A stretch of 64,000 nucleotides of DNA from the NCBI RefSeq assembly GCF_000016065.1, contig NC_009092.1, positions 2,666,001 through 2,730,000 on the forward strand. Reading direction: 5' to 3'. Positions 8,389 to 26,431 of this stretch are shown here, in pieces; position 1 is the first letter of the stretch, and the number at the start of each line of letters is the position of its first letter. This stretch comes from Shewanella loihica PV-4 (GTDB taxonomy: Bacteria > Pseudomonadota > Gammaproteobacteria > Enterobacterales > Shewanellaceae). The notes below the pieces were generated by a model, which had not been told where the DNA came from, ran no database searches, and was given only the letters and a program-made list of their open reading frames with translations. Made by a program: the position numbers and the translations under genes.

Positions 8389-8418
8389 TTCCTGAAAAGG
8401 GGCTTTTGTTTCCCATTT
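8389..8418 (-). promoter_or_regulatory. Predicted MelR-like operator pair upstream of the gal operon
   Basis: Read on the minus strand, AAATGGGAA (8410-8418) and TTTCAGGAA (8389-8397) lie exactly 21 bp apart as direct repeats. The second is a perfect copy of the TTTCnGGAA element found upstream of the TonB receptor; the first matches in its GGGAA half. The pair is 67-96 bp upstream of the galT start, a suitable place for activation. Assignment to the AraC-family protein at 18469-19344 is inference. Confidence 0.55.
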
Positions 8419-8800: not shown

Positions 8801-11800
8801 ATGAAAATAACCCCAAGACCCTGTGTAACTCTCACCCTGGCTATCGGCCTCGCGCTGGGCACCCTACCCAAGGCCGGTCTGGCCGATGGCCTGATCCGCG
8901 ACCCCAGGATCAGGCCAGACACCCAGATCACAGTTAGCTCCAGCGATCCTCAGCTGGATCTCGCCATCGCCCGTTCGGTCGATTACATCTACGACTATCT
9001 GGTGGTCGGCCCTCAGCAATACCCCACCACGGAAGAAGCCGCGCGGATCACTAAGTTTCGCGACGCTGGGGTACCCGCCGTCCCCTCCCTGTGGGGCAGC
9101 TACCACGGCACACCGACGGCCAATGCCACAGGCTACAGAGAAAACTTCTGCCTGCGGGATGTCGCCCATCAGACAGAGGGGGCGGCCCTGCTGAGCCTCA
9201 ACGAAGAAAATATCGACATGCTGACCCGCTTCGCCTTCGACGCCCTGCAGGATAAGCGAGTTGAAGTCAGCGACCCCAATCTCGACCCCTTAGACCCCTG
9301 GGCCTCGGCGCGCCCTAAGAGTTTCTGGCAGGAATACTGGACCCTATGGTCCTACAACTTCTACGGCGCACCTTACTATATGGATGCAGGTTTTCAGGAA
9401 CTGCCCGCGCCGCTTGAGCTGTTAGAAAAAGTCTATCGCATGTATCGATTTACCGGCGATGAGCGCTGGTTATCCCAGACCTTCATGGACTATGGTGAGC
9501 AGCTGCTCAATGAGTTCGCCAGTCGTTACGACTTTAACGGCAACGGCATAGTCGACAACCGCGGTAACGAAGGGATACTGCCCACCCTGTGGGAGTTTGA
9601 GGGCGCCAGCCATATCGGTGACAACGAACTCAGCTTTAGCCTGTCGGCGGATCAGCAAGGCGGCAGTCTCATCATAGACAAGGGCTACTTCGCCCGACTC
9701 CATGTGCAGGACATGAGCCTTAAGGTGAGATTTAGAAACGGCCGCGACGACTACCTCAGGGTCAGAATAAACAACCTGACTTCCGCCACGGGCGAGGCGC
9801 CTATCCTCTCTAACGACTACCTGTTTATCGAAAATACCCAGCCGACCCAAGATCTGCTGCTCAGCTTTAACCGAGCGCCCGGCGTTACACTGACCAAACT
9901 CACCGACGGCAAGACCCCCTTGGTGCCGGGCAGTGACTACAGCATCAGCGGCAATCAGGTCGTCATCAGCAAGAGCTACCTGGATAGGATCATAGGTAAC
10001 AGCTCCTATCGCTATAAGTTCTCCTTCGGCTTCCAATTTAGCGACGCCAGCCAGGCCCGCCTGGTGGTAGAATCTGGCTCCCATAGCTACGCCGATGCCA
10101 TCTTGAGTCAACGCAGCGTCACCCTGGACTGGAACAATCTGCAGGATGTAAATCTAACACTGGATTTCAGCCAGACTCCCACGGAAAACCGTGACCTCTA
10201 CCGCATCGAGAACAACATGAACCGTGTGGTCGAAGCCGGCGATACCCTGGGGGTTCAGTACCAGGCCATACTGGCCTATGAGCAGATGCTGCGCGCCAAG
10301 GCGCAACTGGTGAACGACAGCCAGGAAGCCGCGACGCTTATCGCCAAGGCCGACCAGTATCGGGCCAGTGCCCAGTCACTGCTGAGCGATTTCCAGACCC
10401 GCTGGTACGACGATAAACAGATGACCTATGCCAGGGCATTTGACGGCTATGGCAACGCCATCTTCGGCTGGGGCCATGAAAACAGCTTCTTCATGCCGAT
10501 GAAAGATCTGCTGGAGCCTGGGGCTAAGGCCGACGCCTATCTAAGCTTTATCCACGATAACTCGGAAAGCCTCAACGAAGAGGCCAAAACCTACCTGCCT
10601 GAGGCCTTCTTCAACTACGGCCAGAACGACCGCGGCTGGTATTGGATGCAGGCAGGGCTCAAACGCTTCTTCGCCGATCGCGGTGACGATCAGGTGATCA
10701 AGACCTATCCGGAGATCGCCTTTACCAACGTCTCCAACCTGGTGACCCATATGATGGGCTTCGAGCCCAATGTGCCCCAGCATAGCATCAGCACCCTATC
10801 GCGCCTGCCGGCGAGCCTTGGGCATGTCGAGGTAGCCAACCTGCCCCTTGGCCAGAGCCTGATGCAGACCGGCGACTATCACAGGGAGATAGACAGCCTG
10901 CTCACTCTGCGTCACGACAGTCAGCACAGCACGACACTGAGCCGTAGCGCAGGTAGCGGCGAGCCCCTGACCTGGCGTGCCCAGTTTATCGGCAGCTACC
11001 CAAGTCTCTATGTAGATGGTCAGGCCCTGACTGCCAGCCAGGCCAGCATCAACGGCGTCACCATCTCCTATGTGGATCTCGACCTCAACGGCGGCCAGAG
11101 CATTGTTGTCTCGACCTCAGAAGATGGCACCGAGCCGCCGGTCGAACCACCGGTAGAGCCGCCTGTTGCCTGGACACCACTGATAGATCTTACGCCCGTC
11201 AGCCAGCAGAGCGACTGGGGCAGCATCAATCTTAATAAGAGCGTGGACGGTAACCCCCTGAGAGTCGGCGGTCAGCAATACGATAACGGCATAGGCACAC
11301 ATGCAAGTGGCGAGATCATCTACGACCTGCAGGGACAGTACCAAGGCTTTACCGCTCTGGTGGGGGTTGACGATGAGGTGGGCAGCAACGGCTCGGTGCG
11401 CTTCAAGGTCTATCTTGACAATCAGCTGGCGTTCGACTCAGGCGTGAAGACAGGCATTGACGCCGCCAGTGCGCTCGATCTGGATGTCGTGGGAGTCTCG
11501 CAGCTTAGGCTGGTTATTGAGGATGGCGGCGATGGCATCAACAGCGATCACGCCGACTGGCTACAGCCCCGCCTGACCCGGAAGGTAACAGTGCCGCTGA
11601 CCAGCCTCACGCCCCTAAGTGCCAGCACAGGTTGGGGCAACATGCAGTATGACAGGAGCATAGAGGGCAATCCGCTCACCCTGGGCGGCCAGACCTTTGC
11701 GACTGGCATAGGTACCCACTCCACCAGCGAACTTGTTTACGACCTAAAGGGCCTCTATAGCGACTTCGAGGCCAAGGTCGGCGTTGACGATGAGACCGGT

Positions 11801-12010
11801 AGCAATGGCAGTGTGGCCTTTGAGATCTACCTCGACGGCCAGCTCGCCTACGACTCTGGCGCACTGCTTGGCAGCGATTCACCCCATGCCATCGCCGTCG
11901 ATGTCAGCGGCGCCCAGCAGATGCGTCTGGTCACCACAGACGGCGGCGATAACATCAACTTCGATCATGCCGACTGGGCCGTGCCTGTGCTGATTCAAAA
12001 CGGCCATTAA
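8801..12010 (+). CDS. Secreted (alpha/alpha)6 glycosidase-like protein with two NPCBM/CBM51 modules
   Basis: 1069-aa exported protein, probably a glycoside hydrolase acting on a galactose-containing glycan; I cannot name its GH family. After a signal peptide (cleavage near GLADG) come helical segments typical of six-hairpin glycosidases at residues 45-265 and 470-665 (ENFCLRDVAHQTEG, QEYWTLWSYNFYGAPYY, WEFEGA, GWGHENSFFMP, FFNYGQNDRGWYWMQAG). Between them are two beta-rich stretches (about 275-340 and 345-430) resembling CBM_X2 (SDYSISGNQVVISKSYL). A PPVEPPVEPP linker (779-789) leads to two NPCBM domains (about 791-927 and 930-1066), each with GIGTH, a YDL(K/Q)G segment, VGVDDE and DHADW. NPCBM is CBM51, known to bind galactose-type glycans. 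RBS AGGAG precedes ATG 8801. The acid and base residues were not identified. Confidence 0.8.
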   Translation: MKITPRPCVTLTLAIGLALGTLPKAGLADGLIRDPRIRPDTQITVSSSDPQLDLAIARSVDYIYDYLVVGPQQYPTTEEAARITKFRDAGVPAVPSLWGSYHGTPTANATGYRENFCLRDVAHQTEGAALLSLNEENIDMLTRFAFDALQDKRVEVSDPNLDPLDPWASARPKSFWQEYWTLWSYNFYGAPYYMDAGFQELPAPLELLEKVYRMYRFTGDERWLSQTFMDYGEQLLNEFASRYDFNGNGIVDNRGNEGILPTLWEFEGASHIGDNELSFSLSADQQGGSLIIDKGYFARLHVQDMSLKVRFRNGRDDYLRVRINNLTSATGEAPILSNDYLFIENTQPTQDLLLSFNRAPGVTLTKLTDGKTPLVPGSDYSISGNQVVISKSYLDRIIGNSSYRYKFSFGFQFSDASQARLVVESGSHSYADAILSQRSVTLDWNNLQDVNLTLDFSQTPTENRDLYRIENNMNRVVEAGDTLGVQYQAILAYEQMLRAKAQLVNDSQEAATLIAKADQYRASAQSLLSDFQTRWYDDKQMTYARAFDGYGNAIFGWGHENSFFMPMKDLLEPGAKADAYLSFIHDNSESLNEEAKTYLPEAFFNYGQNDRGWYWMQAGLKRFFADRGDDQVIKTYPEIAFTNVSNLVTHMMGFEPNVPQHSISTLSRLPASLGHVEVANLPLGQSLMQTGDYHREIDSLLTLRHDSQHSTTLSRSAGSGEPLTWRAQFIGSYPSLYVDGQALTASQASINGVTISYVDLDLNGGQSIVVSTSEDGTEPPVEPPVEPPVAWTPLIDLTPVSQQSDWGSINLNKSVDGNPLRVGGQQYDNGIGTHASGEIIYDLQGQYQGFTALVGVDDEVGSNGSVRFKVYLDNQLAFDSGVKTGIDAASALDLDVVGVSQLRLVIEDGGDGINSDHADWLQPRLTRKVTVPLTSLTPLSASTGWGNMQYDRSIEGNPLTLGGQTFATGIGTHSTSELVYDLKGLYSDFEAKVGVDDETGSNGSVAFEIYLDGQLAYDSGALLGSDSPHAIAVDVSGAQQMRLVTTDGGDNINFDHADWAVPVLIQNGH

Positions 12011-14225: not shown

Positions 14226-15839
14226 TTAGCCCTGAATTAACGCCCGGATGAAGGCCCTGTGATCCGGCAGTTTCTGCGCCAGAAAAGCCTTGGCGTGGGC
14301 GATCTTATCCAGCTGCGCCCAGGCCTGCTGGCGCGCCGCGTCATCGAGCGCCTTGGGCTGCGTACTGAAGCCCATGCCGTAGAGCAGATAGAGGTAGTTA
14401 TCCACGCCAAACACCTCGAACTGAGAGAAGAAGTCGTCGGGATGGGGCGTGAAGTGTTGCCACAGGGCGAGTCGCCGCGCCAGCTCCTCGGACGCCGGCT
14501 GTGCACTCAGATGAGTACGATAGTCGCGCCAGAAGGCTGAGTCACTGCGATCCGACAGCTGATAATGCAGCGCCACGAAGTCAATCACTGCCTGCCAGGC
14601 GTGACCAACGATTCGATTAAACCTGGCCTCAAGCACTGGCAGTGTCTCACTGTCTGTGGGAAATTTGCGCGCAAGTAATGACGCGGCGAAGTCAGTCAGC
14701 AGGATAGAGGTCGCCTCCAGGGGCTCGAGAAAGCCCTGGGCCAGCCCAAGTGCGACGCAGTTGCCCTGCCAGAACTTTTGCAGGTGGCCTACCCGCATGG
14801 TGAGGCTGCGAAACTCGCCGGCACTTGGCAGCTCGTCACCCAGATACCGCTTGAGCTTTCGGCGAGCCTCATCGTCGCTCAGGTAGCGATCACAATAGAC
14901 CAGACCCACGCCTCGCCGCTTGGGCAGGGCGATATCCCAGATCCAACCGGCCTGATGGGCGCTCGCCTGGGTATAGGGCGGCAGCGGCGCATTGGGCGCG
15001 CTGGCCACCTGAGTTACTAACGCCTTATTCATCCAAAGCTTATCCGCAAGGGAGATGAATTCGACGCCGAGGGCTTTCTCCATCAAGAGGCCGCTAAAGC
15101 CTGAGCAGTCAAGATAAAAGTCGAAACAGCGGCGACCGCCCTCTCTCAGGTGCAGCGCCACTATCTTCTTATCATTTTTACTTTCATTGCCCTCTGTGAG
15201 CATGTCCGTTTCTACACTGTCTGTCCCACGCCTGCCCGTCTCAAGCCTGCCTGTTTCGACTTCGAGCAGGTGATCTTGGATATGCTCGACGCCGAAACAC
15301 TCTATGGCGTTCTCCCTGAGCAGCTCGGCAAACTTGGCGGCGTCGAAGTGATAGGCATAGGCGTGGGCCCCCTGATAGGGTGCGGAGGCGAGCGTCTTAG
15401 GCGCCTTTTGCGCCTCGCAGCTATATCGCTGGGGCGACAGGGCCTCATCGAACCCCATGGGGTTCTCACCCTTTGCGAGCCCATCGAGCCAGAAGTCGCT
15501 GAGATCCACACCAAAGGGACTGGGCGGGTCGAACAGGTGATGAAAGGCGCTCATCTCGCTGCCAGGCGCGCGGTGGCGCCAGTTGATGAACTTGATCGAT
15601 TGCTTGAAGCTGGCATCACAGCGCCTGAACAGCGCCGTCTCCTCAATGCCGAACGCCTGCAGGGACTTACGGATCATGGGCACTGTGCCTTCCCCCACCC
15701 CTATGGTGGGGACATCGGGCGATTCGATAAGGGTAATGCTCACCTTAGGGCTACTTCCCTTGAGCGCCAGGCCCAGATGGTTGGCGGCCAGCCAACCACT
15801 GGCGCCGCCACCGACGATGGCAATGGATAAGATGCTCAC
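14226..15839 (-). CDS. Tryptophan halogenase-family flavoprotein
   Basis: 537-aa FADH2-dependent halogenase-like protein (PF04820 family). It has the FAD dinucleotide motif GGGASGW at residues 10-16, a lysine at position 79 (SFKQ) where RebH and PrnA carry their catalytic Lys79, the halogenase WxWxIxLP-type motif WIWDIALP near 299-306, and GFLEPLEATS near 369-378 with a conserved Glu. Residues about 195-225 form a hydrophilic insertion with repeats (ETGRLETGRRGTDSVETD) that looks like recent micro-duplication. Such genes often accompany TonB receptors in marine sugar loci, where their role is not understood. It lies 112 bp downstream of the glycosidase lipoprotein, probably co-transcribed. 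No dedicated flavin reductase is nearby. Confidence 0.85.
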   Translation of the reverse strand: MSILSIAIVGGGASGWLAANHLGLALKGSSPKVSITLIESPDVPTIGVGEGTVPMIRKSLQAFGIEETALFRRCDASFKQSIKFINWRHRAPGSEMSAFHHLFDPPSPFGVDLSDFWLDGLAKGENPMGFDEALSPQRYSCEAQKAPKTLASAPYQGAHAYAYHFDAAKFAELLRENAIECFGVEHIQDHLLEVETGRLETGRRGTDSVETDMLTEGNESKNDKKIVALHLREGGRRCFDFYLDCSGFSGLLMEKALGVEFISLADKLWMNKALVTQVASAPNAPLPPYTQASAHQAGWIWDIALPKRRGVGLVYCDRYLSDDEARRKLKRYLGDELPSAGEFRSLTMRVGHLQKFWQGNCVALGLAQGFLEPLEATSILLTDFAASLLARKFPTDSETLPVLEARFNRIVGHAWQAVIDFVALHYQLSDRSDSAFWRDYRTHLSAQPASEELARRLALWQHFTPHPDDFFSQFEVFGVDNYLYLLYGMGFSTQPKALDDAARQQAWAQLDKIAHAKAFLAQKLPDHRAFIRALIQG

Positions 15840-15951: not shown

Positions 15952-18120
15952 TTAGAGCGAGAGCAACACAGGTCCCTTGCCGTCCCAGCTAAACTTCTGC
16001 TCCTTGCCGCCTGGCTGCTGGACGCTGATCTGATAGGCATCATCGCCTTTAGCCTGAGTGCGATTAACGCAGAGATCTACCTTGCTGTTGAAGGCGCGGA
16101 TCCCCCTTAAACACATGTTATCCCAACCGGTCGGTAGATAAGGGGCGACCTTGAGGCGATTAAAGCCTGTGGGTTCCATGCCGAAGATCCCCTCGGTCAC
16201 GACCCGGGCGTAAAGGGCGCTCTCGGCCGAGAGGTGGCGCTGGTTACCCTCGGGCCAAGCCTCGACCGCATAGGGCACATGCTCACCCAGCAGGCGTTTG
16301 CGCGAATAATACTTAAAGTAGCGCATGGCGGTGTCTGTCTCCTGGGCGCTGAAGATCCCCCTGAAGGCATACAGGGTCGCCCTGTCCCAGAAGGTCTTGT
16401 TTCCCGCCTCGCTGTAGATCCCTTCTGGGCTCCACAGGTAGTCCGACAGCAGGGCATCCAGGGTCGCCTGCTTACGGTCGAAGATGCCGAAGGTGAGCGG
16501 TAAGGCGATCCAGGCCCTCAGCTTGTCGTTGCCTTGATAATACTGATAGGTATCGAACCCCTGCACGTTCGCGCCAAAATAACCCTCGATGGCGGCCTTT
16601 AGCGCCTCGGCTCGCTGGCGATAGTCGCTGGCCAGTTCCGTGTGGCCCAGCTCCTGATTCAGGTAGGCCGAGGAGATCAGCGCACCATAGGTCAACATGT
16701 TGGTGCTGAGGTTCACCTCTCCTGCGGGGAAACGTCCCTCCAGCTCATCGCTGTCGGAGGCGATTACCCCATCTTGGGTCTGCTTCTTGTAGCTAAAGTC
16801 GATACACCAGTCGATGAGAGGCAGGAGCGCGCGGGCCTGCTGCTTGTTGCCATAGGCCAGGGCGAATCGGCTGGCACCATAGGCGATCATGGCACAATCG
16901 CCCCTGTCACCGGCGCCGTTCCAGTAATCGTCACCCTCGGCGATGATAGAGGATGGGATCGCCCGTCCCTCATCGTTCATGTAACGGGCAAAGTGGGCGA
17001 AGCTGTTGATGGCCGACTCGTTGCCGCGTTTATCCCCCAGGAAGGGGAAGAAGGGGTTGATATACTCCGCCTGATCGTTGGCCCAGATCGCCGCGTAGTA
17101 GCGACCGCCGCCGGGGCCATGCATCAGGCCGCCCTTGGTCCTGAAGATAGACTCGGCGCTGCGCAGCTTGGCAAACTCGAACATCTTGTTGAGCACAGGA
17201 TCTGGCGTCTCCAGACGAAGGTTTTGATTCAGCTGGGCCACATAATCCTTACGCGCGGCTATCTCTTGTGCTGGAGAGAGCTCCTGAGCTGGCGTTAGCT
17301 CTTGTGCCGGCGTTAGCACGTTCGCTTGAGTTAGCGCCTGACCAGGCCCCGCCTCACCTACTTGCTTGTCGGCTCTGTGGGCCTCAAAGGTCACGAAGAG
17401 CTCCAGGTCGCTGCCGGGCGCCAGGCTGAACTGCCCAGCCTTGTCGCTGCTGGCCTGGATAAGATAGCGGCCATAGACCCCCTTATCCGCATCCGTCTCG
17501 ACCCTGTAATCTAAAGGCTTAAACTCCAGCGTGACGGCCTGCTCGCCCTGGTTAGTAAACCGCAAGCGCTCGATCATCTTAGGCCCTGTGGTGCTGGGCG
17601 ACAGGGTGCGACTGAGGCGTACCTTGCTGCCCTGGGCATCGGATAGCTGGCTGGTTAGATTAAGGGTGCCATCTATGGTCACACGCGCAAGTGACTCTTT
17701 CGCAAGCGGCATACCACCAAGCATGATCTCGGGCGAGACGCTCAAGGGAAAATCATGGATCAGGCTGGCATGGGTGTCGTTAGGAATGGTGCGTAGCATG
17801 GGCCAGACCAGCTTACGCTTCAGGGTCAGCTGTCCCTGCTCGTCGCTGCCGTAGTAGATGATGGCCGAGATCTGCTCGCCGCTCATCTCGATATGATCCT
17901 CATGCTTGTCCTGTACCTGCCAGGTGATCCCCTCATCGCCTAACTGCCAGCGGTCATTCAGAGTATTGGCCAAGTCGTTTAACTGCACCTGATCGTTTAA
18001 CTGCATTTGGGCCTGAGGGGCTTCTGGGGCGACTTGCTGCTCGCCTGAACGGGGCGCTTGGTGAGAACAGGCCGATAGGATGGAGATTGCGCATGCCGAT
18101 AATAAAATGCTTTTTTTCAT
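15952..18120 (-). CDS. (alpha/alpha)6-barrel glycosidase-like lipoprotein
   Basis: 722-aa predicted lipoprotein, probably a periplasmic or outer-membrane glycoside hydrolase of the six-hairpin class; the GH family was not recognised. ATG 18120 (MKKSILL) is preceded by GAGAAGAG and gives a lipoprotein signal with lipobox SAC (Cys18); the frame to 18159 adds a poor leader. Residues about 50-250 form a beta-sandwich and about 300-670 a helical barrel with WANDQAEYINPFFPF, EGDDYWNGAGDRGDCAM, FWDRATLYAFRG and EAWPEGNQRHLSAESALYAR; acidic residues in these motifs are catalytic candidates. A linker at 262-287 has the repeat LTPAQE. It probably forms a unit with the halogenase gene downstream. Confidence 0.78.
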   Translation of the reverse strand: MKKSILLSACAISILSACSHQAPRSGEQQVAPEAPQAQMQLNDQVQLNDLANTLNDRWQLGDEGITWQVQDKHEDHIEMSGEQISAIIYYGSDEQGQLTLKRKLVWPMLRTIPNDTHASLIHDFPLSVSPEIMLGGMPLAKESLARVTIDGTLNLTSQLSDAQGSKVRLSRTLSPSTTGPKMIERLRFTNQGEQAVTLEFKPLDYRVETDADKGVYGRYLIQASSDKAGQFSLAPGSDLELFVTFEAHRADKQVGEAGPGQALTQANVLTPAQELTPAQELSPAQEIAARKDYVAQLNQNLRLETPDPVLNKMFEFAKLRSAESIFRTKGGLMHGPGGGRYYAAIWANDQAEYINPFFPFLGDKRGNESAINSFAHFARYMNDEGRAIPSSIIAEGDDYWNGAGDRGDCAMIAYGASRFALAYGNKQQARALLPLIDWCIDFSYKKQTQDGVIASDSDELEGRFPAGEVNLSTNMLTYGALISSAYLNQELGHTELASDYRQRAEALKAAIEGYFGANVQGFDTYQYYQGNDKLRAWIALPLTFGIFDRKQATLDALLSDYLWSPEGIYSEAGNKTFWDRATLYAFRGIFSAQETDTAMRYFKYYSRKRLLGEHVPYAVEAWPEGNQRHLSAESALYARVVTEGIFGMEPTGFNRLKVAPYLPTGWDNMCLRGIRAFNSKVDLCVNRTQAKGDDAYQISVQQPGGKEQKFSWDGKGPVLLSL

Positions 18121-18468
18121 ACTCTTCTCGGTATTAATAACGTTTTTATCTTGTGTCATTCGAATATTTGGCTATTTATAATAGTCAAAATATAAAATAA
18201 GCCGATAAGGCTTAACCTAATAATCGAAGACACTCGGTTATTACTATTCAGTATTATTTTTTATAAGTGGCTCGTGCCGATAAATATCCAAGGAAATAGA
18301 GACTCTTGTTAAATAGCCTTCTCTATTTACCCGCCAAGCCTTTATTCGCTGCGCCTTTGTTGATTAGCCAGTCTGGACGGGCTAAGCGCGAGCGCTTTAC
18401 AGATTGAAGCACGCGAGCGCGGCAACAGGCTTACTAAAAAACAATGACACTTTCTCGAAAAATAACCC
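18121..18468. other. Intergenic region upstream of the glycosidase lipoprotein
   Basis: 348 bp between the glycosidase start and the AraC-family stop, both genes on the minus strand. AT-rich near the glycosidase (18121-18300), it holds the candidate operator pair at 18431-18460 near the far end. A 6-bp inverted repeat TTAGCC/GGCTAA (about 18364-18385) lacks a T run. I see no gene. Confidence 0.6.
18431..18466 (-). promoter_or_regulatory. Predicted MelR-like operator pair upstream of the glycosidase lipoprotein
   Basis: On the minus strand, GTTATTTTTCGAGAA (18452-18466) is identical in 14 of 15 positions to the sites upstream of the TonB receptor (19411-19425) and of the GH97 gene (24378-24392). 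A weaker partner, TTTTAGTAA (18431-18439), lies 21 bp further downstream. The pair is about 310 bp upstream of the glycosidase start. The long shared 15-mer makes chance unlikely; the regulator assignment is inference. Confidence 0.6.
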
Positions 18469-19344
18469 TCATCCCACCCGGCGACGAAACTCCAGCGGCG
18501 ACATGTTGAACTCACGCTGAAAGATGTCATAGAAGCGGCTCACCGAGCCAAATCCCGCCTCCAGTGCTATGTTCAGCACAGGATTCTCGGTATCGATCAG
18601 CAAGGCCTGGGCATGTTGCAACCGTAGCTGGTTAATATATTGTTTTATTGAGACTTTCATTACGCGATTGAAGAGCTTCATCGCATAGTTCTTGTGCAGC
18701 CCGGTGGACATGGCCACGTTTTCTATGGTGATCTTCTGATCATAATGGTCGGCGATATAACGCAGCATGGTCTGGATATGGTTAAGCCCACCAAACACCG
18801 GCTTGTCGACCCCATGGCCGCTACGATGGGCCAGATTAAAGGTGCTGTAATGCTCTATCGCCATGCGGCGGATACGGTTGCGGATCTCGTTGATCACCTG
18901 GCTGGCGAGCAGAGGCTCCTGGCTGGCGATATCCGCCTCCCAGATCTGCGTCAGCTGGCGATCGCACACATAGAGGCTGTCCGACACCATCACCTCGCCG
19001 TGGAGCAGTTGGCTGACAAACTCCCCCGGCAGCATCCAGGTGAGGAAGGCCTGCAGCGGAATGTAGATATTGACTATCTCACCGTCACCATGACAGGCGG
19101 TCATCTGATGGGGGATCGAAGCCCAGAAGATGATCATCCGTCCCTCGGGCACAGAGATCTCCTGACCGTTAATCAAATAATCCGCTGAACAATCAAAGAG
19201 GTAGTTAATCTCTATGTGTCCATGCCAATGGCTGTGGGCCATCACCTCTGGCCGCTTGCGATGAAAGCCAAACTTATTGTCCTGCGCCTGCGCCGTTAAC
19301 GGACTGGCTTCACTAAACGAAATTTTCTCGACCCATTCGAACAT
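18469..19344 (-). CDS. MelR-like AraC-family transcriptional regulator
   Basis: DNA-binding activator with an N-terminal cupin-type sugar-sensing domain and a C-terminal double helix-turn-helix. The N-terminal half aligns by eye with E. coli MelR, the melibiose activator: SHWHGHIEINYLFD, DYLING, FWASIPHQMT. The AraC domain shows ITIENVAMSTGLHKNYAMKLFNRVM and VLNIALEAGFGSVSRFYDIFQ. I chose ATG 19344 (MFEWVEK, about 291 aa, close to MelR) over the frame start at 19404; the ribosome-binding site is modest. MelR senses an alpha-galactoside, so the inducer here is probably related. It is divergent from the TonB receptor and is the likely ligand of the TTTCnGGAA repeats. Confidence 0.88.
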   Translation of the reverse strand: MFEWVEKISFSEASPLTAQAQDNKFGFHRKRPEVMAHSHWHGHIEINYLFDCSADYLINGQEISVPEGRMIIFWASIPHQMTACHGDGEIVNIYIPLQAFLTWMLPGEFVSQLLHGEVMVSDSLYVCDRQLTQIWEADIASQEPLLASQVINEIRNRIRRMAIEHYSTFNLAHRSGHGVDKPVFGGLNHIQTMLRYIADHYDQKITIENVAMSTGLHKNYAMKLFNRVMKVSIKQYINQLRLQHAQALLIDTENPVLNIALEAGFGSVSRFYDIFQREFNMSPLEFRRRVG

Positions 19345-19410
19345 AAGGATAACCCCGGTTAACCCACCTTTAGCGAAGCTAACCCAAATACATTTGATTA
19401 ACAAACATAA

Positions 19411-19446
19411 GTTATTTTTCGGGAAGTTATACCTGATTTTCAGGAA
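19411..19446 (+). promoter_or_regulatory. Predicted MelR-like operator pair 1, TonB receptor/regulator intergenic region
   Basis: TTTCGGGAA (19417-19425, inside GTTATTTTTCGGGAA 19411-19425) and TTTCAGGAA (19438-19446) are perfect TTTCnGGAA direct repeats 21 bp apart. The pair is closer to the AraC-family gene (start 19344), so it could serve autoregulation or DNA looping with pair 2, which begins about 98 bp away. Confidence 0.65.
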
Positions 19447-19514
19447 TGTTCAGAGTGAAACTTACTCAAGTAGTGAGCATGAAAATACCTGATGTTAAAT
19501 ATTCGTTAGGATAT

Positions 19515-19545
19515 TTTCTGGAAATCATAGGCACTATTTCGGGAA
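19515..19545 (+). promoter_or_regulatory. Predicted MelR-like operator pair 2 at the TonB receptor promoter
   Basis: TTTCTGGAA (19515-19523) and TTTCGGGAA (19537-19545) are perfect TTTCnGGAA direct repeats 22 bp apart. A possible -10 element TATAAA (19568-19573) places the -35 hexamer at 19545-19550, so the downstream repeat abuts the -35 position. This is the class II geometry used by AraC at araBAD. The start codon of the receptor is 133 bp downstream. Confidence 0.65.
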
Positions 19546-19677
19546 GTTTCCCTTCCAGTCTCGGGGATATAAATATCAGGGTGAACTGATTTCAAAAATT
19601 AGTTTATTGAGCCTGATAAGAATTAATTCAGCCCAAACAATAAAGCTCAAAAAGCCTGAAAACACGAAGGGAACACT

Positions 19678-22482
19678 ATGAAAAGAAATTATCTTGCCTT
19701 TGCGATTAGCCTTGCATTGGCCTCTTCACTTCCCGCCTACGGGGCCGACGACGAAGAGAAGCAACAAAATGATGAGACCGAGATGGAAGTCATCGAGGTG
19801 CGGGGGATCTTAAGCAGTCTGAAAGAGGCGCAGTCGATCAAGAAGGAAGCCGACAATGTGGTCGACGCCCTGGTCGCCGAAGATATAGGTAAATTCCCCG
19901 ACAGCAACGTCGCCGAGGCGATGCAGCGTATCCCAGGGGTAAGCGTTAACCGCCTGCGCGGCGAGGGTCAGAGCGTTACTGTGCGTGGTCTGAGTGGCGA
20001 CTACAACGTCACCACGCTCAACGGCAGAAAGATCGCCTCGGAAACCGTGGGGCGCGACTTTAACTATGATCTGATCGCCGCCGAGCTGATTGGTGGCATT
20101 CAGGTCAACAAGACCCAGCAGGCCTCTCTGCCCGAAGGCGGCATAGGCGCCATCATCAACATCGATACCCTCAAGCCCCTCAACGTGGGCAGTAAGGTAG
20201 CCGGCTCTATCGAGGGCTACTATAACGAGCGCGCCGGTGAGACAGATCCCCAAGCCTCGCTGCTGATCAGCGAGACCTTTAACGACGACGAGCTGGGGAT
20301 CTTGATCTCCGCCAACCACACCTCCTCCTTCACCCGCTTCGACAGCCACAGCGCACAGTGGGGCTGGAACGAGTGGAGCGAGGCCGAGCTGATGCCAAAC
20401 GGCGATCCTAACGTGTCGGGCCGCTTCCCCAGCTGGCCTAACATCATGGTGAGCACGGATCAGCGCGAGCGCAGCGGCGGTACGCTGGCGCTGCAGTGGC
20501 GCCCGACCCCGAACCTGGACATCAACTTTGATGCCCTTTATACCAAGTATGAGATTGAATCCACGGGGAACATGATCTCCCTGGCCCTGTTTGAGGGCAC
20601 CAACCTAGACAACATCCAGGATGTGCAGTTTGGTGCCGACGGTCACACCAACAGTATCACAATCGGTGAGCCGGGCAACATGGACTCGCCGGCCATCGCC
20701 GAGCTGCTGGAATCGCAAAATCCCCGCGACAGTGATGCCATGCAGGTGGGGCTGAACCTCAACTACATCTGGGACAACTTTAACTTTAACTTCGACCTGG
20801 CCTACTCTGAGGCGGAAGATGCCTCGGCGGCAGTCAGCTGGGTGGTGGTGCGTACCGCCATCGACACCCTCACGGTCAACTGGGATAACGGCGAGCAGGT
20901 GCCCGACATCTCCTTTGGCGATACCGTGCTGGATGAGAACATCGACTATGGCGCCTGGTATGCCCGCATCGACGGCGACAAGGTGAAGGACAAGACGGGT
21001 AACTTCAACTTCAACGGCACCTATGAGCCGGACGATGGCATCATCAGCAAGGTGCTGTTCGGCACCGGCTATAACATGCAGGACAAGGGCAAGACCTACT
21101 GGAGCCAGGAAAACCCCAGCGCCTATACCTTCCGCAACGGCGTCACAGAGAGCGAGTGGATCAACGCCCCCGATAGCGAAAAGGTGGATATCGCCGGCAA
21201 CACCCTCTGGGGACCGTTACCGGCAACAGCCCTCAATCCGGGCAACTTCGACGACTTCATGGGTAGCTCAAACGCCATGCTGCCCAACACCTGGGCGGGG
21301 ATCAACATTCCCGGGCTGTTCGACTATTATCGATCCTTGGACAGCGAGGCATTCGATCAATACTTGGTGCCCAGACCTAACCTCACCGGCGGCAACACCT
21401 ATGGGGTGAAAGAGGAGACCATCCACGCCTACGCCGAGCTGATCCTCGAAGATGAGATTGCCAGCATGCCCTATATGCTCGACTTCGGTCTGCGCTATAT
21501 AGACACAACCGTCACCTCCTGGGGCTACTCACAGGATCCCGCCAACATCGCCTTCGATGAAAACGGCCTGTTTACCGACGCAGTGGATACCGTCGGCCTG
21601 GTGGAGTTTGAAGGCAACTACAACAAGCTGCTGCCGAGCTTCAACGGTAAGCTGGGGCTGACCGATGATTTGGTCTGGCGTCTGTCGCTGTCACAGGCGA
21701 TCTCTCGTCCGCCGCTGACCAACCTGTCGCCTGTCACCTCTATCTGGCAAAACGAGGAGAAGACGCCGCCGGAGAACTTCATCTATGAGAATGACCCAGG
21801 CCTGGAGCCCTACTACGCCGATCAGCTCGATACCACGCTGGAGTGGTACTACAGCGACAGTGGCACCCTTAACCTGGCCTTCTACTACAAGGAGCTGCAC
21901 GGCTTCGTGATCTACGAGCCGACGCGGGAAACCATCAATGGCGCCAGCTTCGAGGTCACCCGCCCCTACAATGACGATGAAAACCAGTCGCGTATCCGGG
22001 GTTATGAGCTGAACTGGCTACAGACCTTCGACGACTTCCTGCCTGATGCCCTGGCGGGCTTCGGTGTGCAGGCCAACTATACCTATAACAACAGCGAGTC
22101 GGGTGAATACACGGACGATGGCGAGCAGTTGCCGTTCAAGGGATTGTCTGATCATCAGTACAATGTGGTCGCCTTCTACGAGAACCATGGGCTTAAGGTC
22201 AATGTGGCCTATAACTATCGCTCCGAGTACAGCCTGGGCAAGCAGTGGTATTGGTCAAATGCCCTCAACGACTGGACCTCAGAGACCCTACAGGTCGACG
22301 AATGGGGCCAACTGGATATGCAGGTGGGCTATGACGTCACAGACAATATCACCCTCACCTTCGAGGCCAACAACCTTCTTGACCCCGATTATGTGCAGTA
22401 CCTGAACGGGGACAAGAACCACGTAGACTATATCTCCAGCTGGGGTCGTAGCTATCGTGCGGGGGTTCGCTTCAAGTTTTAA
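19678..22482 (+). CDS. TonB-dependent outer-membrane receptor (Caulobacter-type, oligosaccharide uptake)
   Basis: 934-aa TonB-dependent receptor that would import an oligosaccharide across the outer membrane using proton-motive force via TonB/ExbBD. It has a signal peptide ending at YGADD, a TonB-box-like segment (MEVIEVRGI, residues about 36-44) and a plug domain with the typical ALVAEDIGKFPDSNVAEAMQRIPG stretch (shown in part). The C-terminal barrel ends in RAGVRFKF. The plug sequence is that of the TIGR01782-like sugar receptors common in Caulobacter, Xanthomonas and Shewanella. It has its own promoter behind two operator pairs and its own terminator. The substrate is inferred from neighbours to be an alpha-galactoside or galactose-bearing glycan. 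Confidence 0.92.
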   Translation: MKRNYLAFAISLALASSLPAYGADDEEKQQNDETEMEVIEVRGILSSLKEAQSIKKEADNVVDALVAEDIGKFPDSNVAEAMQRIPGVSVNRLRGEGQSVTVRGLSGDYNVTTLNGRKIASETVGRDFNYDLIAAELIGGIQVNKTQQASLPEGGIGAIINIDTLKPLNVGSKVAGSIEGYYNERAGETDPQASLLISETFNDDELGILISANHTSSFTRFDSHSAQWGWNEWSEAELMPNGDPNVSGRFPSWPNIMVSTDQRERSGGTLALQWRPTPNLDINFDALYTKYEIESTGNMISLALFEGTNLDNIQDVQFGADGHTNSITIGEPGNMDSPAIAELLESQNPRDSDAMQVGLNLNYIWDNFNFNFDLAYSEAEDASAAVSWVVVRTAIDTLTVNWDNGEQVPDISFGDTVLDENIDYGAWYARIDGDKVKDKTGNFNFNGTYEPDDGIISKVLFGTGYNMQDKGKTYWSQENPSAYTFRNGVTESEWINAPDSEKVDIAGNTLWGPLPATALNPGNFDDFMGSSNAMLPNTWAGINIPGLFDYYRSLDSEAFDQYLVPRPNLTGGNTYGVKEETIHAYAELILEDEIASMPYMLDFGLRYIDTTVTSWGYSQDPANIAFDENGLFTDAVDTVGLVEFEGNYNKLLPSFNGKLGLTDDLVWRLSLSQAISRPPLTNLSPVTSIWQNEEKTPPENFIYENDPGLEPYYADQLDTTLEWYYSDSGTLNLAFYYKELHGFVIYEPTRETINGASFEVTRPYNDDENQSRIRGYELNWLQTFDDFLPDALAGFGVQANYTYNNSESGEYTDDGEQLPFKGLSDHQYNVVAFYENHGLKVNVAYNYRSEYSLGKQWYWSNALNDWTSETLQVDEWGQLDMQVGYDVTDNITLTFEANNLLDPDYVQYLNGDKNHVDYISSWGRSYRAGVRFKF

Positions 22483-22534
22483 TCTCCCTTGTTAAATGAT
22501 TCGCTCAAAGACAATTTAGGCAATCGTTTTGTTC

Positions 22535-22565
22535 GCCCATTACCACTAGGTGATGGGCTTTTTTT
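22535..22565 (+). terminator. Rho-independent terminator of the TonB receptor gene
   Basis: Stem GCCCATTACC (22535-22544)/GGTGATGGGC (22549-22558) with one G-T pair, followed by TTTTTTT. It is 53 bp after the stop codon. Confidence 0.85.
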
Positions 22566-22606
22566 ATCCCCATTCCCCGCCGCAAAACTTAACTTATCCA
22601 GCTGAT

Positions 22607-22636
22607 ATTCCTGAATAATTAATAGTGTTTCTCGAA
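22607..22636 (+). promoter_or_regulatory. Predicted MelR-like operator pair upstream of the PEGA lipoprotein
   Basis: ATTCCTGAA (22607-22615) and TTTCTCGAA (22628-22636) are direct repeats 21 bp apart, matching TTTCnGGAA at 6 of 8 and 7 of 8 positions. They lie 127-156 bp upstream of ATG 22763. Immediately downstream is a perfect inverted repeat (22644-22663). Confidence 0.45.
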
Positions 22637-22643
22637 AACTACT

Positions 22644-22663
22644 CAAGGGCTGATTAGCCCTTG
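22644..22663. repeat. Perfect inverted repeat CAAGGGCT-GATT-AGCCCTTG
   Basis: 8-bp arms with a 4-base loop, 7 bp after the operator pair and 100 bp before the lipoprotein start. No T run follows, so it is not a standard terminator. It could be a protein site or a hairpin in the 5' leader. Confidence 0.5.
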
Positions 22664-22762
22664 AATGGGTCAGCCTGGATGGCTTAATTTTTAGTCGCTC
22701 ATGGATATCAATCCATCACCAACACAATCACCTACTTCTTCATCGACAGGGAGATTCTTCAC

Positions 22763-24337
22763 ATGGAAAGACATTTAAGCAATAAGCCAAACAGGCAATT
22801 AAGCAATAAACCAAACAGGCAGTTAAGCAAGCACGGAGCATCCACCCTACTGAGCCTACTCTTCTTAGGTGTCATAGGGCTCAGCCTGCCGGGCTGCGGC
22901 TCAGGTGGCGATGACGGCAAAACTAGCGAGCCAGCGGTTACACCACCGGTAGCCACACCGACACCAGAGGGGAGTCTCACAGTATCTGCTAGCGAGAGCG
23001 GCGCTGCCATCTACCTAGATGGGCGCTTCACTGGCAAGCTGACCCCGGCCGAACTCACCCTCGAGCCCGGCGAATACACCATAGGCGTGGGGCTCAACCA
23101 GAGTGAGCAGTATCTTAGACGCACGGTTCAGGTAGAGGCCGACCAGACCATTAGCCTGGCGCTGGATGAGAGCGATCGCCAGACGCCCAAGGCCTGGAAG
23201 GCGCTGTTTATCGGTGTGGCCAAGGTGCAGGCTCAGGGTGATAGTTGTGTCAGCCAATACCAGACCGAGCAGCTCGACGCTGGCTTTGACTTCTTTCGCT
23301 GGAGCTTTAAGGAGCGCGTCGAGCCCTACAGCTATCACACCATGGATTGGCAGTTTGAGCGTCTGGATATCACGGATGAGGTGGTGACCCTCAGCAATGA
23401 CAAGCTCATCGGCCCGGCGGAGATCGAGCCCTATCTGACGAACGTCGACAAGGGCGACTATGACCTCATCGTCAGTTTCTTTCGCGGCGGCGCCGGCAGC
23501 GATGACTGCTACATAGACGACTTCAAGGGCATCGCCTGGTATGACTATCGCGTGCTCAACTCAGACGCCTCCTACTACACGATACGCTTCTATGATGATG
23601 TTAGCGGGCGTATCGAGGCGGCCAAGGCAAATGACAGAGATCCGGGCATGTACATCCACGAGTGGCTGCACACCACGGCGGAGTGGTTCTTTCCCGATCA
23701 GGGCTATGCCCAGCCCAGCAGCGACGGCCAGGTGGTCCACGCCGCCGAGGTATACGGCTACAGCTGGCCCTGGATGAGTTGGTATCGAGACCTCATCCGC
23801 GGCCAGGTGAAACAGCAAGCCAGCTATGTGGGCATAGGCCCGGACGCCCTGCTCGGCTGTAGCGTCAGCGAAGACGCCTTAGGCCTGTGTTCGAGCGCCG
23901 CAGGTCAAGCAGCATCAGACGCCTCTAGTCAGGTGGCGCCAGAGGCCTTTATTCAAACACCCTTGATCTATGACAAGAGCGCCGGACAACAGGTGCCCTG
24001 GCAGACGGTGAGCCGACCCTATCGAGATGGCCGGGTCTCATTTGGTCAGATCCCGTCCGGTGAGCAGCTCTGCCTCAATCGCCACACCGTCAGCTACCTG
24101 CTCGGCGATGGCACCCTAGCACTCACCTTAGATGAAAGCCTCTGCGGCGAGCCGTCCAGCGCCCGTCTCAGCTTTACGCCTTGGCTAGCAGAGGAGCAGT
24201 CGTCGCGTGTAATCACGCTGCCCATTGACCAAGCCAGCAGGCTTTTAGCCAGCAAAAAACCCTTTATTGAAGGTGAGCACCTCAGCTTAGATGAGATCTT
24301 AATTGAGCTAAGAGCACTGATGGCGCACTCGCTCTAG
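22763..24337 (+). CDS. PEGA-domain lipoprotein with HExxH metallopeptidase-like motif
   Basis: 524-aa predicted lipoprotein of unrecognised family. The signal has a long basic leader holding an 8-residue tandem repeat (LSNKPNRQ twice), a hydrophobic segment and the lipobox LPGC (Cys45). Residues about 70-135 look like a PEGA surface beta domain (GAAIYLDGRFTGKLTPAELTLEPG). The main domain (145-365) holds HEWLH at 299-303, a candidate zinc-peptidase HExxH helix, with a further His-Glu at 326 and 329 (HAAEVYGY). The C-terminal 130 residues look like a separate beta-rich region. It has its own start (RBS GGGAG at 22750) and an operator pair, between the sugar receptor and GH97 genes. Peptidase activity is a guess from the motif; a sugar-binding or surface-anchoring role is equally possible. 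Confidence 0.7.
   Translation: MERHLSNKPNRQLSNKPNRQLSKHGASTLLSLLFLGVIGLSLPGCGSGGDDGKTSEPAVTPPVATPTPEGSLTVSASESGAAIYLDGRFTGKLTPAELTLEPGEYTIGVGLNQSEQYLRRTVQVEADQTISLALDESDRQTPKAWKALFIGVAKVQAQGDSCVSQYQTEQLDAGFDFFRWSFKERVEPYSYHTMDWQFERLDITDEVVTLSNDKLIGPAEIEPYLTNVDKGDYDLIVSFFRGGAGSDDCYIDDFKGIAWYDYRVLNSDASYYTIRFYDDVSGRIEAAKANDRDPGMYIHEWLHTTAEWFFPDQGYAQPSSDGQVVHAAEVYGYSWPWMSWYRDLIRGQVKQQASYVGIGPDALLGCSVSEDALGLCSSAAGQAASDASSQVAPEAFIQTPLIYDKSAGQQVPWQTVSRPYRDGRVSFGQIPSGEQLCLNRHTVSYLLGDGTLALTLDESLCGEPSSARLSFTPWLAEEQSSRVITLPIDQASRLLASKKPFIEGEHLSLDEILIELRALMAHSL
22775..22830 (+). repeat. 24-bp tandem repeat in the lipoprotein signal-peptide region
   Basis: Units at 22775-22798 and 22799-22822 differ at two positions, and a partial third (TTAAGCAA) follows at 22823-22830. 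Each unit encodes LSNKPNRQ, so gain or loss would change only the n-region length of the signal peptide. Confidence 0.85.
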
Positions 24338-24377
24338 GAGTATCTATCTAACACGCAGCAGGCGGGGCGAAACAGAG

Positions 24378-24457
24378 GTTATTTTTCGGGAAACATTAGC
24401 CCCGTTTTCATGCGCCCGGGCGTCAATCGACATGCTTCAATGACTTACCTTCGGGAA
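24378..24457 (+). promoter_or_regulatory. Predicted MelR-like sites upstream of the GH97 gene
   Basis: GTTATTTTTCGGGAA (24378-24392) is identical over 15 bp to the site at 19411-19425. A weak half-site TTTCATGCG (24406-24414) follows at 22 bp, and CTTCGGGAA (24449-24457, 7 of 8 matches) lies 31 bp upstream of the start codon. I could not define a convincing -10 element. Confidence 0.55.
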
Positions 24458-24487: not shown

Positions 24488-26431
24488 ATGTTGCAGCGTT
24501 TTTTGACGGCGCCCCAGGCGTATAAGCAGCTGATGTTGGCCGGAGTGCTAACGCTTCCCTGCGCACTGGCCATGGGCGAGACCTATCAACTCAGCTCCCC
24601 GGACGGCAGCATCTTGGTCGATGTCATCGCCGAGGAGCAGCTCAGCTATCGCGTCAGCGTCGACGGCCAAACCATCCTGGCCCCATCACACATCGCCATG
24701 ACCTTTGCCGATGGCACGGCGCTCGGAAAGTCGCCTCAAGTGGTTGAGGTCAAGCGCAGTGCCATCTCAGAGCAGCTCACCCCGGTTATCAAGGTGCGTA
24801 CCGCCAAAATAGACAACCAATACAACCAGTTGAGCCTGAGCTTCAAAGATAACTACCAAGTGGATTTTCGCGCCTTCGATGAAGGAGTCGCCTATCGTTT
24901 CAGCGCCCAGCAGTCTGGCAAGAGTGCCCTCACCTCTGAACAGGCCGAGTTTAACTTCGCCAAAGGCGCCTTCGCCTACTTCCCCTTCGAGAAGAAGTTT
25001 GCCAGCGCCACCCAACCCAGATTTACCCCCATCGCCGCCAAGGGGATAGACAAGGACGAGCTGGGTAGCCTGCCGGCCCTGTTTGTGGTCAATGGCGTCA
25101 ATGTGTTGCTGACCGAGACAGACCTGCAGAGCTATCCCGGCCTCTGGCTAAGGGGCAAGGGCGATGGCAATGTCTATGGCGTGCACCCATTCGAGCTAGA
25201 TAAAGATGAGCAGTACACAAAGGATCTTGGCATAGTCAGCAAGTCTCGCAGCTATCCCTGGCGCATCCTGGCCATCGCCCGCAGCGACGGTGAGCTGCTC
25301 GACAATCAGATGAGCTACACCCTGGCCGAGCCGTCACGCATCGAAGACACCTCCTGGATCAAGCCAGGCAAGATCGCCTGGGACTGGTATAACGAAAACA
25401 ACCTCAAGGGGGTCGACTTCAAGGCGGGGATCAATACCGAGACCTACCAGTATTACGCCGATTTTGCCGCCGACTTTGGCATCGAAAATATCTTGATCGA
25501 CGATGGCTGGTCGTCACAGGAGGATGTACTTAACGTATTGCCGGGGATCGACATGCAGGCGATCATCGCCCATGCCAAGGCCAGAGGCGTCGGGGTACAG
25601 CTATGGGTGCCCTATTCGGCGCTGGACAAGAACCTGGAAGAGGCGTTTAAGCTCTACGCCAAATGGGGGATCAACGGCGTCAAGATAGACTTCATGGACA
25701 GCGACAGCATCAAGCGGGTGGATTTCTACTGGCGCGCCGCCGCCATGGCCGCCAAGTACAAGCTGATGGTCAACTTCCACGGCGCCTACAAGCCCGCGGG
25801 GATCCACAGAACCTACCCCAACGTGATGACCCGCGAGGGGGTCAGAGGATTGGAGAACAACAAATGGTCAGAGGTGACCTCTACCCACAACCTGCATCTG
25901 CCCTTCATCCGCATGATAGCGGGTCCGCTGGATTACACCCCGGGCGCCATGGCCAATGCCCAACAGAAGAACTTCAACAAGGTCTGGTCTCGCCCCATGA
26001 GCCTCACCACCCGGGCGCAACAGATTGCCATGTATGTGATCTACGAGAGCCCGCTGCAGATGCTCGCCGACACCCCCACCAGCTACCGCGCCGAACCTGA
26101 GATCCCGCGCTTTATCGCCGCCATTCCTACGGTATGGGATGACTTTAAGGTGCTGCATGCCAGCATAGGCGAGTATTTCACCATAGCGCGCCGCGCAGGT
26201 GATAACTGGTACATAGGCGCCATGACCAATACCCAGGCGAGAAGCCAGCAGATCAACCTGGACTTTCTTGGAGATGGTGAGTATGAGATGCAGCTGCTGC
26301 AAGATGGCATCAACGCGGGTAACTTCGCCGAAGACTATAAGCTCATCAAGAAAACCGTTACCAAGGGCGACAGCCTAGATCTCAACATGGCGGCCAACGG
26401 CGGCTATGCCATACAGCTGATCAAACGTTAA
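24488..26431 (+). CDS. GH97-family retaining alpha-galactosidase-like enzyme
   Basis: 647-aa exported glycoside hydrolase family 97 protein (SusB/BT1871 relatives) that would remove alpha-linked galactose (or glucose) in the periplasm. A signal peptide (LMLAGVLTLPCALAMG) precedes an N-terminal beta-supersandwich (30-290), a TIM barrel with WDWYNENNLKG, ILIDDGWS and GVKIDFMD, and a C-terminal beta domain. Asp401 in KIDFMD sits where retaining GH97 enzymes have their nucleophile. Glu456 lies 55 residues later in MTREGVRGLE, the same spacing I recall for Asp415/Glu470 of BT1871; the inverting SusB lacks the Asp. This favours a retaining alpha-galactosidase, agreeing with the Leloir operon and MelR-like regulator. 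RBS AGGAG at 24473. Confidence 0.88.
   Translation: MLQRFLTAPQAYKQLMLAGVLTLPCALAMGETYQLSSPDGSILVDVIAEEQLSYRVSVDGQTILAPSHIAMTFADGTALGKSPQVVEVKRSAISEQLTPVIKVRTAKIDNQYNQLSLSFKDNYQVDFRAFDEGVAYRFSAQQSGKSALTSEQAEFNFAKGAFAYFPFEKKFASATQPRFTPIAAKGIDKDELGSLPALFVVNGVNVLLTETDLQSYPGLWLRGKGDGNVYGVHPFELDKDEQYTKDLGIVSKSRSYPWRILAIARSDGELLDNQMSYTLAEPSRIEDTSWIKPGKIAWDWYNENNLKGVDFKAGINTETYQYYADFAADFGIENILIDDGWSSQEDVLNVLPGIDMQAIIAHAKARGVGVQLWVPYSALDKNLEEAFKLYAKWGINGVKIDFMDSDSIKRVDFYWRAAAMAAKYKLMVNFHGAYKPAGIHRTYPNVMTREGVRGLENNKWSEVTSTHNLHLPFIRMIAGPLDYTPGAMANAQQKNFNKVWSRPMSLTTRAQQIAMYVIYESPLQMLADTPTSYRAEPEIPRFIAAIPTVWDDFKVLHASIGEYFTIARRAGDNWYIGAMTNTQARSQQINLDFLGDGEYEMQLLQDGINAGNFAEDYKLIKKTVTKGDSLDLNMAANGGYAIQLIKR

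Follow-up and report, generated by a model that had tools for sequence, protein, structure and literature searches.

MelR of Escherichia coli occupies several 18-bp sites, one of which lies over the -35 element of melAB, and MelR-type regulation is co-dependent on CRP. In class II activation by AraC-type proteins, a half-site lies over the -35 region of the promoter. In some other Shewanella, as far as the parts of PMC2996990 available to us state, the galT-galK-symporter operon is controlled by GalR, a LacI-family protein with an AACGTT-centred palindrome. For S. woodyi and two S. baltica strains, the accessible parts of the Shewanella reconstructions assign galR as regulator, and they mention none for the gal genes in S. 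loihica and the other galKM-locus species (PMC2996990, PMC3223726). Here we analyzed a carbohydrate locus of ∼22 kb (22.2 kb) in Shewanella loihica PV-4, whose genome is one contig of 4,602,594 bases; the window, i.e. the whole stretch of DNA analyzed, is 64 kb in length. An earlier note on this window had proposed that one MelR-like activator governs uptake, cleavage and the gal operon through TTTCnGGAA direct repeats, replacing GalR-type control, and both our matrix scans and the comparison with relatives favour this prediction. The sites, their spacing, their conservation and their co-occurrence with the regulator gene were computed; from these we infer, with high confidence, that the MelR-like protein binds 21-bp direct repeats and acts as an activator rather than a repressor, switching on a TonB-dependent receptor, two glycosidases (GHx and GH97) and the gal operon upon induction by an alpha-galactoside or galactose. 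In the mostly open-access literature consulted, including the available parts of PMC2996990, PMC3223726, PMC5343134, PMC6392122 and PMC12825309, with papers on MelR binding outside this set, we found no earlier description of the regulon. The predicted regulon is new and the kind of system is well known. It would fill a gap by providing a regulator for the S. loihica gal genes, and would be a natural case of one regulator family replacing another at the same operon.

The regulator (291 residues) is encoded at 18469–19344 on the minus strand and was identified by profile and alignment. Its score with the NCBIfam MelR model (NF007693, equivalog) is 243.2 bits, the next best model reaching 77 bits; because this is under the model's cut-off of 253, we term the protein MelR-like rather than MelR. 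Over 279 residues it is 33% identical to MelR of E. coli, and the two helix-turn-helix motifs can both be aligned; the resemblance to MelR that had been noticed earlier thus holds. The C-terminal double helix-turn-helix of the AraC/XylS family is matched by PF12833 (5e-20) and, in two stretches, by PF00165 (1.3e-19). As expected of a MelR-type regulator, the gene is linked to a predicted alpha-galactosidase gene (GH97, 24488–26431).

TTTCnGGAA occurs eight times in the window compared with 1.62 copies expected, and none of 100 shuffles reached eight. As a single 9-mer it is not enriched genome-wide (74 copies, versus 186 for the pattern read backwards); seven of the 74 copies fall in the 22-kb locus, where about 0.36 are expected, one of them (9392) within a coding region. 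Whole-genome statements on pairs come from mismatch-pattern searches. By inspection of the listing by eye, just two same-strand pairs 18–26 bp apart exist in the whole genome, both before the TonB receptor gene; with up to three mismatches allowed, the search returned a single perfect pair at 21 bp and another at 22 bp, and the two lie in the interval separating the regulator and receptor genes. GTTATTTTTCGGGAA is found at 19411 and 24378, with a one-change copy on the minus strand at 18452–18466. All sites named in the earlier note (19417/19438, 19515/19537, 19411, 24378, 18452–18466, 22607/22628 and 8389/8410) are present. Two 21-bp matches with two mismatches lie outside the locus; the one at 3360405 scored below 14 with the matrix described below and was rejected as a target, and the one at 1731503 was not taken as a target.

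The site matrix has 13 columns and was built from 34 galT half-sites (weight 0.25) and six receptor-region half-sites (four from the window and two from genome G085). For galT and the receptor, the training involves some circularity; the GHx sites, and the sites before the regulator's own gene beyond the window group and G085, lay outside it. Across 29 loci, 67 pairs scored at least 14, versus 11 with the reversed matrix. In the S. loihica genome, five pairs of at least 20 (three of them training sites) lie in the 22.2-kb locus, and a 400-kb sample from elsewhere (∼9% of the genome) yielded two pairs of at least 14 and none of at least 18. The locus stands out, as the earlier note had predicted of such a scan, and its second prediction, that sites would be kept upstream of orthologous genes in other Shewanella genomes, was also borne out. 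Outside the close group (G000, G009, G040 and G044), 25 of 73 upstream regions of relatives reach 16 at the 21-bp spacing, compared with zero to three at any of the remaining spacings between 12 and 33; two of the 25 belong to G085, which is in the training set, and adjacent divergent regions share part of their sequence. When the matrix is made from galT sites only, 14 of 29 upstream regions of the regulator gene (araC) reach 10 at 21 bp, versus zero to three at other spacings from 14 to 29, and 15 of the 29 loci are unmatched by any of 200 shuffles. The galT-only matrix also ranks 19417, 8389, 18431, 22608 and 19516 (26.5 to 16.3) over the best sample score of 12.8, and a receptor-only matrix recovers 18431 (18.8) and 22608 (16.7). 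The repeats are real and far above chance, and the conserved spacing is 21 bp; the spacing of 22 bp at 19515/19537, which had been included in the original description of 21–22 bp, is confined to the close group of the species, G085 having 21.

Pair A (19417–19446, plus strand, halves at 19417 and 19438) is the sole perfect 21-bp pair of the genome and lies 73 bp before the regulator start. Its counterpart is found ∼70–76 bp ahead of araC in many relatives (90 in locus L012, 116 in the borderline L016). It is kept in seven genomes in which the next gene encodes a topoisomerase instead of the receptor (G009, G065, G080, G100, G102, G107 and G116); G039 and G055 have the same topoisomerase neighbour and no counterpart of pair A. 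Since its position is kept even beside the topoisomerase gene, pair A probably serves autoregulation, and possibly control of the TonB receptor in addition. Pair B (19515–19545, plus strand, downstream copy 19537–19545) is the sole perfect 22-bp pair and adjoins the receptor promoter; a candidate -10 element, TATAAA, is found at 19568–19573 (plus strand, by inspection), and 31 bp separate its start from that of the downstream copy. Counterparts with 21-bp spacing score 22.1 in G085 and 20.4 in L015 (Colwellia), both of which also carry GATATAAATA, the candidate -10 region of the receptor, and L013 aligns well in the downstream half only.

The copy at 18452 proved to form a 21-bp pair with 18431 on the minus strand, in which it is the upstream half; this pair (18431–18460, downstream copy 18431–18439) faces GHx. 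A candidate extended -10 element, TGC-TTCAAT (18403–18408, minus strand, by alignment), precedes the gene; TGCTTCAATC is found in 9 of 13 aligned upstream regions and altered in the other four. Among the 24 loci holding GHx, 16 have a GHx-facing pair of at least 14, two of these at 22 bp. At galT, the pair (8389–8418, minus strand, identified by conservation) consists of a downstream copy at 8389–8397 and an upstream copy at 8410–8418, the latter, AAATGGGAA, deviating from TTTCnGGAA. Before GH97 there is one good half-site (24384–24392, plus strand), which is kept in G040 and G044 and has one change in G085; its partner 22 bp downstream (24406–24414, plus strand, by alignment) is weak, with three mismatches for the pair, and a candidate -10, TTCAAT, follows at 24436–24441. 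The claim that most units of the locus carry such repeats therefore stands in part: good pairs precede the TonB receptor, GHx, the gal operon and the regulator, and GH97 has one good half. The gene at 22763 has a weaker 21-bp pair (22608–22637, score 20.9), located between the receptor and PEGA-domain genes and seen otherwise only in G044 among the relatives scanned; it was placed on the minus strand, which is uncertain because the half-site is nearly palindromic. In the matrix scan, no pair of at least 14 was found before 8801–12010, the two EamA-like genes or the LysR gene.

By inspection, and taking the -10 elements as candidates, the distance from the start of the downstream half-site to TATAAA or TTCAAT is 30–31 bp for the receptor, GHx and GH97, and that to the likely -10 of galT is ∼32–35 bp. 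At such distances the half-site would lie over the -35 region. Class II AraC-type activation has this geometry, with direct repeats separated by two helical turns and one of the copies at -35. We propose that each operator of the regulator would consist of two TTTTCnGGAAT-type half-sites with the same orientation and a spacing of 21 bp, equal to two helical turns. The downstream half-site would cover the -35 region in the promoters of the TonB receptor, GHx, the gal operon and, to a weaker degree, GH97, where a poor -35 would be compensated by the activator bound ∼31 bp upstream of the -10 element. One regulator could then turn on outer-membrane uptake (TonB receptor), cleavage (GHx and GH97) and galactose use (galT-galK-symporter) in response to an alpha-galactoside or galactose, and would regulate itself by binding the conserved pair before its own gene. 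The position of pair A before that gene would also suit a protein that acts chiefly by repression, or one with a dual role that represses when inducer is absent, and E. coli MelR, to judge from the title of one paper, reportedly represses its own promoter. The downstream half-sites at about -40 to -32 together with the poor -35 boxes fit class II activation, and we regard a mainly repressing protein, or a dual regulator of that kind, as unlikely.

Of the 129 genomes of the genus searched, 22 have the regulator at 1e-60. The gal promoter, where only a weak pair (8389/8410) had been noted before, gave the strongest comparative evidence for the regulator's involvement: this pair is the best conserved footprint found. 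The block GGGAnnTAAAAGnnnCTTTTCAGGAATGAC is conspicuous before galT, while galT itself is 63–67% identical in many relatives. galT is present in 22/22 regulator-positive versus 40/107 other genomes. Fifty galT upstream regions were examined, from 49 of the 62 galT genomes (21 regulator-positive, 28 regulator-negative, plus the second galT of G085); 12 more regulator-negative galT genomes and the second galT of G090 fall outside this set. The footprint, defined as at most three mismatches in 24 positions, was found in 17 of the 50 regions, all of them regulator-positive (17/21 versus 0/28). The remaining 33 regions (28 regulator-negative, four regulator-positive and the second galT of G085) have at least eight mismatches, and the best of 1000 single-base shuffles of galT regions had seven. 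Fisher tests gave ∼1e-8 and 1e-9, computed ignoring relatedness, and on a galT tree of 30 rows the label needs two changes, versus about ten on average in shuffles.

We also searched for the E. coli GalR protein in 35 genomes, comprising every regulator-positive genome (22) and 13 of the 28 that are regulator-negative. The S. loihica genome has no GalR match at 1e-50, and no GalR-type palindrome precedes its galT, a lone AACGTT at -214 standing in another context; the two marks of a GalR regulon, a GalR orthologue beside galT and the AACGTT palindrome, are thus both missing in S. loihica. Five regulator-negative genomes (G046, G026, G027, G061 and G125) have a 43–46% GalR match adjoining galT on the opposite strand, and the same five are the ones, of 28, that have a AAACGTTT-type palindrome before galT. 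The other eight GalR-searched regulator-negative genomes lack both the palindrome and the footprint, so that GalR is one alternative among others. The 21-bp footprint and the GalR-type palindrome never co-occur in the 50 regions, and 13 of the 17 footprint genomes are without a GalR match at 1e-50; both observations agree with the replacement of GalR suggested earlier. The other four (G009, G040, G044 and G085) have a 41% match away from galT, and the five regulator-positive genomes without footprint have a 40–42% match elsewhere, a candidate GalR only. These patterns support the view that in this clade, a group of marine Shewanella, the MelR-like regulator would do for galT what GalR does in some other Shewanella.

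Several observations weigh against the proposed regulon. The galT footprint is missing in five of the 22 regulator-positive genomes (G048, G049, G067, G101 and, by alignment only, G022). The genomes are related, hence not independent, and there are just two label changes on the galT tree. In the matrix scan the GHx-facing pair is absent in 8 of the 24 GHx loci, and the partner half-site at GH97 is weak. With the galT-only matrix, 8 of 29 loci have no pair before araC (G010, G016, G039, G055, G081, L010, L017 and L018) and six more are borderline (2–19 of 200 shuffles). The receptor-only score of 16.7 at 22608 is barely above the best sample score of 16.5, and the galT pair is missing from the best seven matches of that matrix.

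The deviating upstream half-site at galT, the failure of the receptor-only matrix to rank this pair and the five footprint-less genomes could all be read to mean that the regulator acts on alpha-galactoside genes only and that the galT footprint belongs to another activator. However, the galT pair shares the 21-bp spacing and the downstream half-site with the others, the galT-only matrix recovers the receptor, GHx and araC pairs, and the footprint is found only alongside the regulator. In addition, G009, G010, G016, G055 and G091 keep both regulator and galT footprint without GHx, which was not found at 1e-5 with a query shown to work, and likewise lack a close GH97 (the search covered no other alpha-galactosidase family; G009 has only a 33% GH97 match elsewhere). 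A separate activator at galT is therefore improbable. Since these five genomes retain regulator and footprint without GHx or close GH97, galactose is a candidate inducer. That a MelR-type activator took over the Leloir galactose operon from GalR, responding to galactose itself beyond alpha-galactosides, is a tentative proposal that we hold somewhat less likely than its opposite.

As the assignment of the sites to the AraC-family protein is a prediction, they could belong to another regulator, e.g. the product of the LysR gene (13244) or some globally acting protein. A close relative of this LysR protein (96–97%) is found in the fetched stretch of just G040 and G044, other LysR matches being 23–39%. 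The melR-melA region of E. coli is enriched in the half-site and the galT footprint tracks the AraC-family gene, which makes another regulator very improbable; no search was aimed at CRP or other global sites. Chance repeats in AT-rich intergenic DNA, which the lack of genome-wide enrichment of the single 9-mer might suggest, are practically dismissed by the genome sample, the spacing peak and conservation amid diverged upstream DNA.

The predicted targets and their neighbouring genes are encoded as follows. The gal operon on the minus strand consists of galT (7231–8322, by search and synteny), galK (6008–7189, by synteny; its 93% identical relative in G009 matches the galactokinase Pfam families) and a sodium/solute symporter (4362–5921; PF00474, TIGR00813), in the order symporter, galK, galT along the window. 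These genes are followed by a plus-strand gene for a 1069-residue protein (8801–12010) with two NPCBM stretches and a CBM_X2 domain, whose residues 1–336 have no Pfam match, by two minus-strand EamA-like genes and by the plus-strand LysR gene, EamA-like and LysR being provisional names. Next, on the minus strand, come a tryptophan-halogenase-like flavoprotein gene (14226–15839; PF04820, 391 bits), GHx (15952–18159) and the regulator; judging by strand and distance, the halogenase-like gene is probably co-transcribed with GHx. The TonB receptor (19678–22482; TIGR01782, 604 bits), the PEGA-domain protein and GH97 are all on the plus strand. GHx is a lipoprotein-like glycosidase without Pfam match at 1e-3 and without solved relative by sequence, and it is highly conserved across 15 aligned relatives. 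Its predicted model (mean predicted local distance difference test score, pLDDT, 67.5) resembles GH94/GH65 enzymes at ∼12% identity; with moderate confidence its fold would be GH94/GH65-like, and it is possibly an undescribed glycoside hydrolase family. GH97 is assigned as a putative alpha-galactosidase from its sequence: it reaches 689 bits with the retaining alpha-galactosidase model NF053844 (cut-off 800), and its closest solved structures, 3a24 and 5e1q, are both named alpha-galactosidases. The PEGA-domain protein (22763–24337) has a HEWLH motif, is zinc peptidase-like and, among the 29 loci, is matched only in G000, G044 and L015.

Named relatives with the regulator include Shewanella species, Colwellia, Pseudoalteromonas, Rheinheimera and Microbulbifer. 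When the search was widened to the order, 3 of 394 genomes proved positive, including two Shewanella genomes, too few for an independent test. In the 29 loci the regulator accompanies GHx, GH97, galT, galK, the symporter or the TonB receptor in varying combinations; in L010 (5.2 kb) it stands alone. GHx is present in 21 of the 129 genomes, 17 of which are regulator-positive; G014, G019, G072 and G073 have a GHx relative (59–60% identical) and no regulator. A GH97 match lies within the fetched stretch of 22 of the 29 loci, about half of these being just 33–46% identical, and such proteins might act on other sugars. The regulator of G009 is 100% identical to that of S. loihica; no receptor, GHx or GH97 was found within the fetched stretch of its locus, L063, and G009 retains galT and galK together with the footprint. 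L015, from a Colwellia metagenome-assembled genome, has two regulator copies, 77% and 62% identical, flanking the receptor and PEGA genes.

Compared with the described systems, the S. loihica regulator is closest to E. coli MelR: it is likewise an AraC-family protein, 33% identical, adjoins an alpha-galactosidase gene and has a half-site type in common with the melR-melA region. In that region of E. coli MG1655 (282 bp), our matrix finds five matches of at least 9, one near-palindromic site being counted on both strands, and these presumably correspond to the known MelR sites. None of 2000 shuffles and none of 1000 column-permuted matrices reach five, and every 282-bp window with at least three matches in the 15-kb E. 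coli record overlaps the melR-melA region; on this sequence evidence, the DNA motif appears to carry over from E. coli MelR. Different from E. coli MelR, whose targets are melA and melB, the predicted targets in S. loihica are the TonB receptor, GH97, GHx and the gal operon. The S. loihica pairs are mostly 21 bp apart and in one direction, whereas in E. coli two strong half-sites occupy opposite strands; the best pair adjoining melR has a spacing of 20 bp (CTTTCCTGGAATA with the weaker TATGGCAGGAGTG) and scores 12.5, short of the threshold of 14 applied elsewhere. In spacing, the S. loihica pairs resemble the I1-I2 sites of AraC at araBAD, two direct half-sites 21 bp apart with the downstream one over -35; half-site sequence and sugar are different. 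With GalR control in other Shewanella they share the target, the galT-galK-symporter operon, but in this clade galR is not found beside galT, and the 21-bp footprint takes the place of the palindrome.

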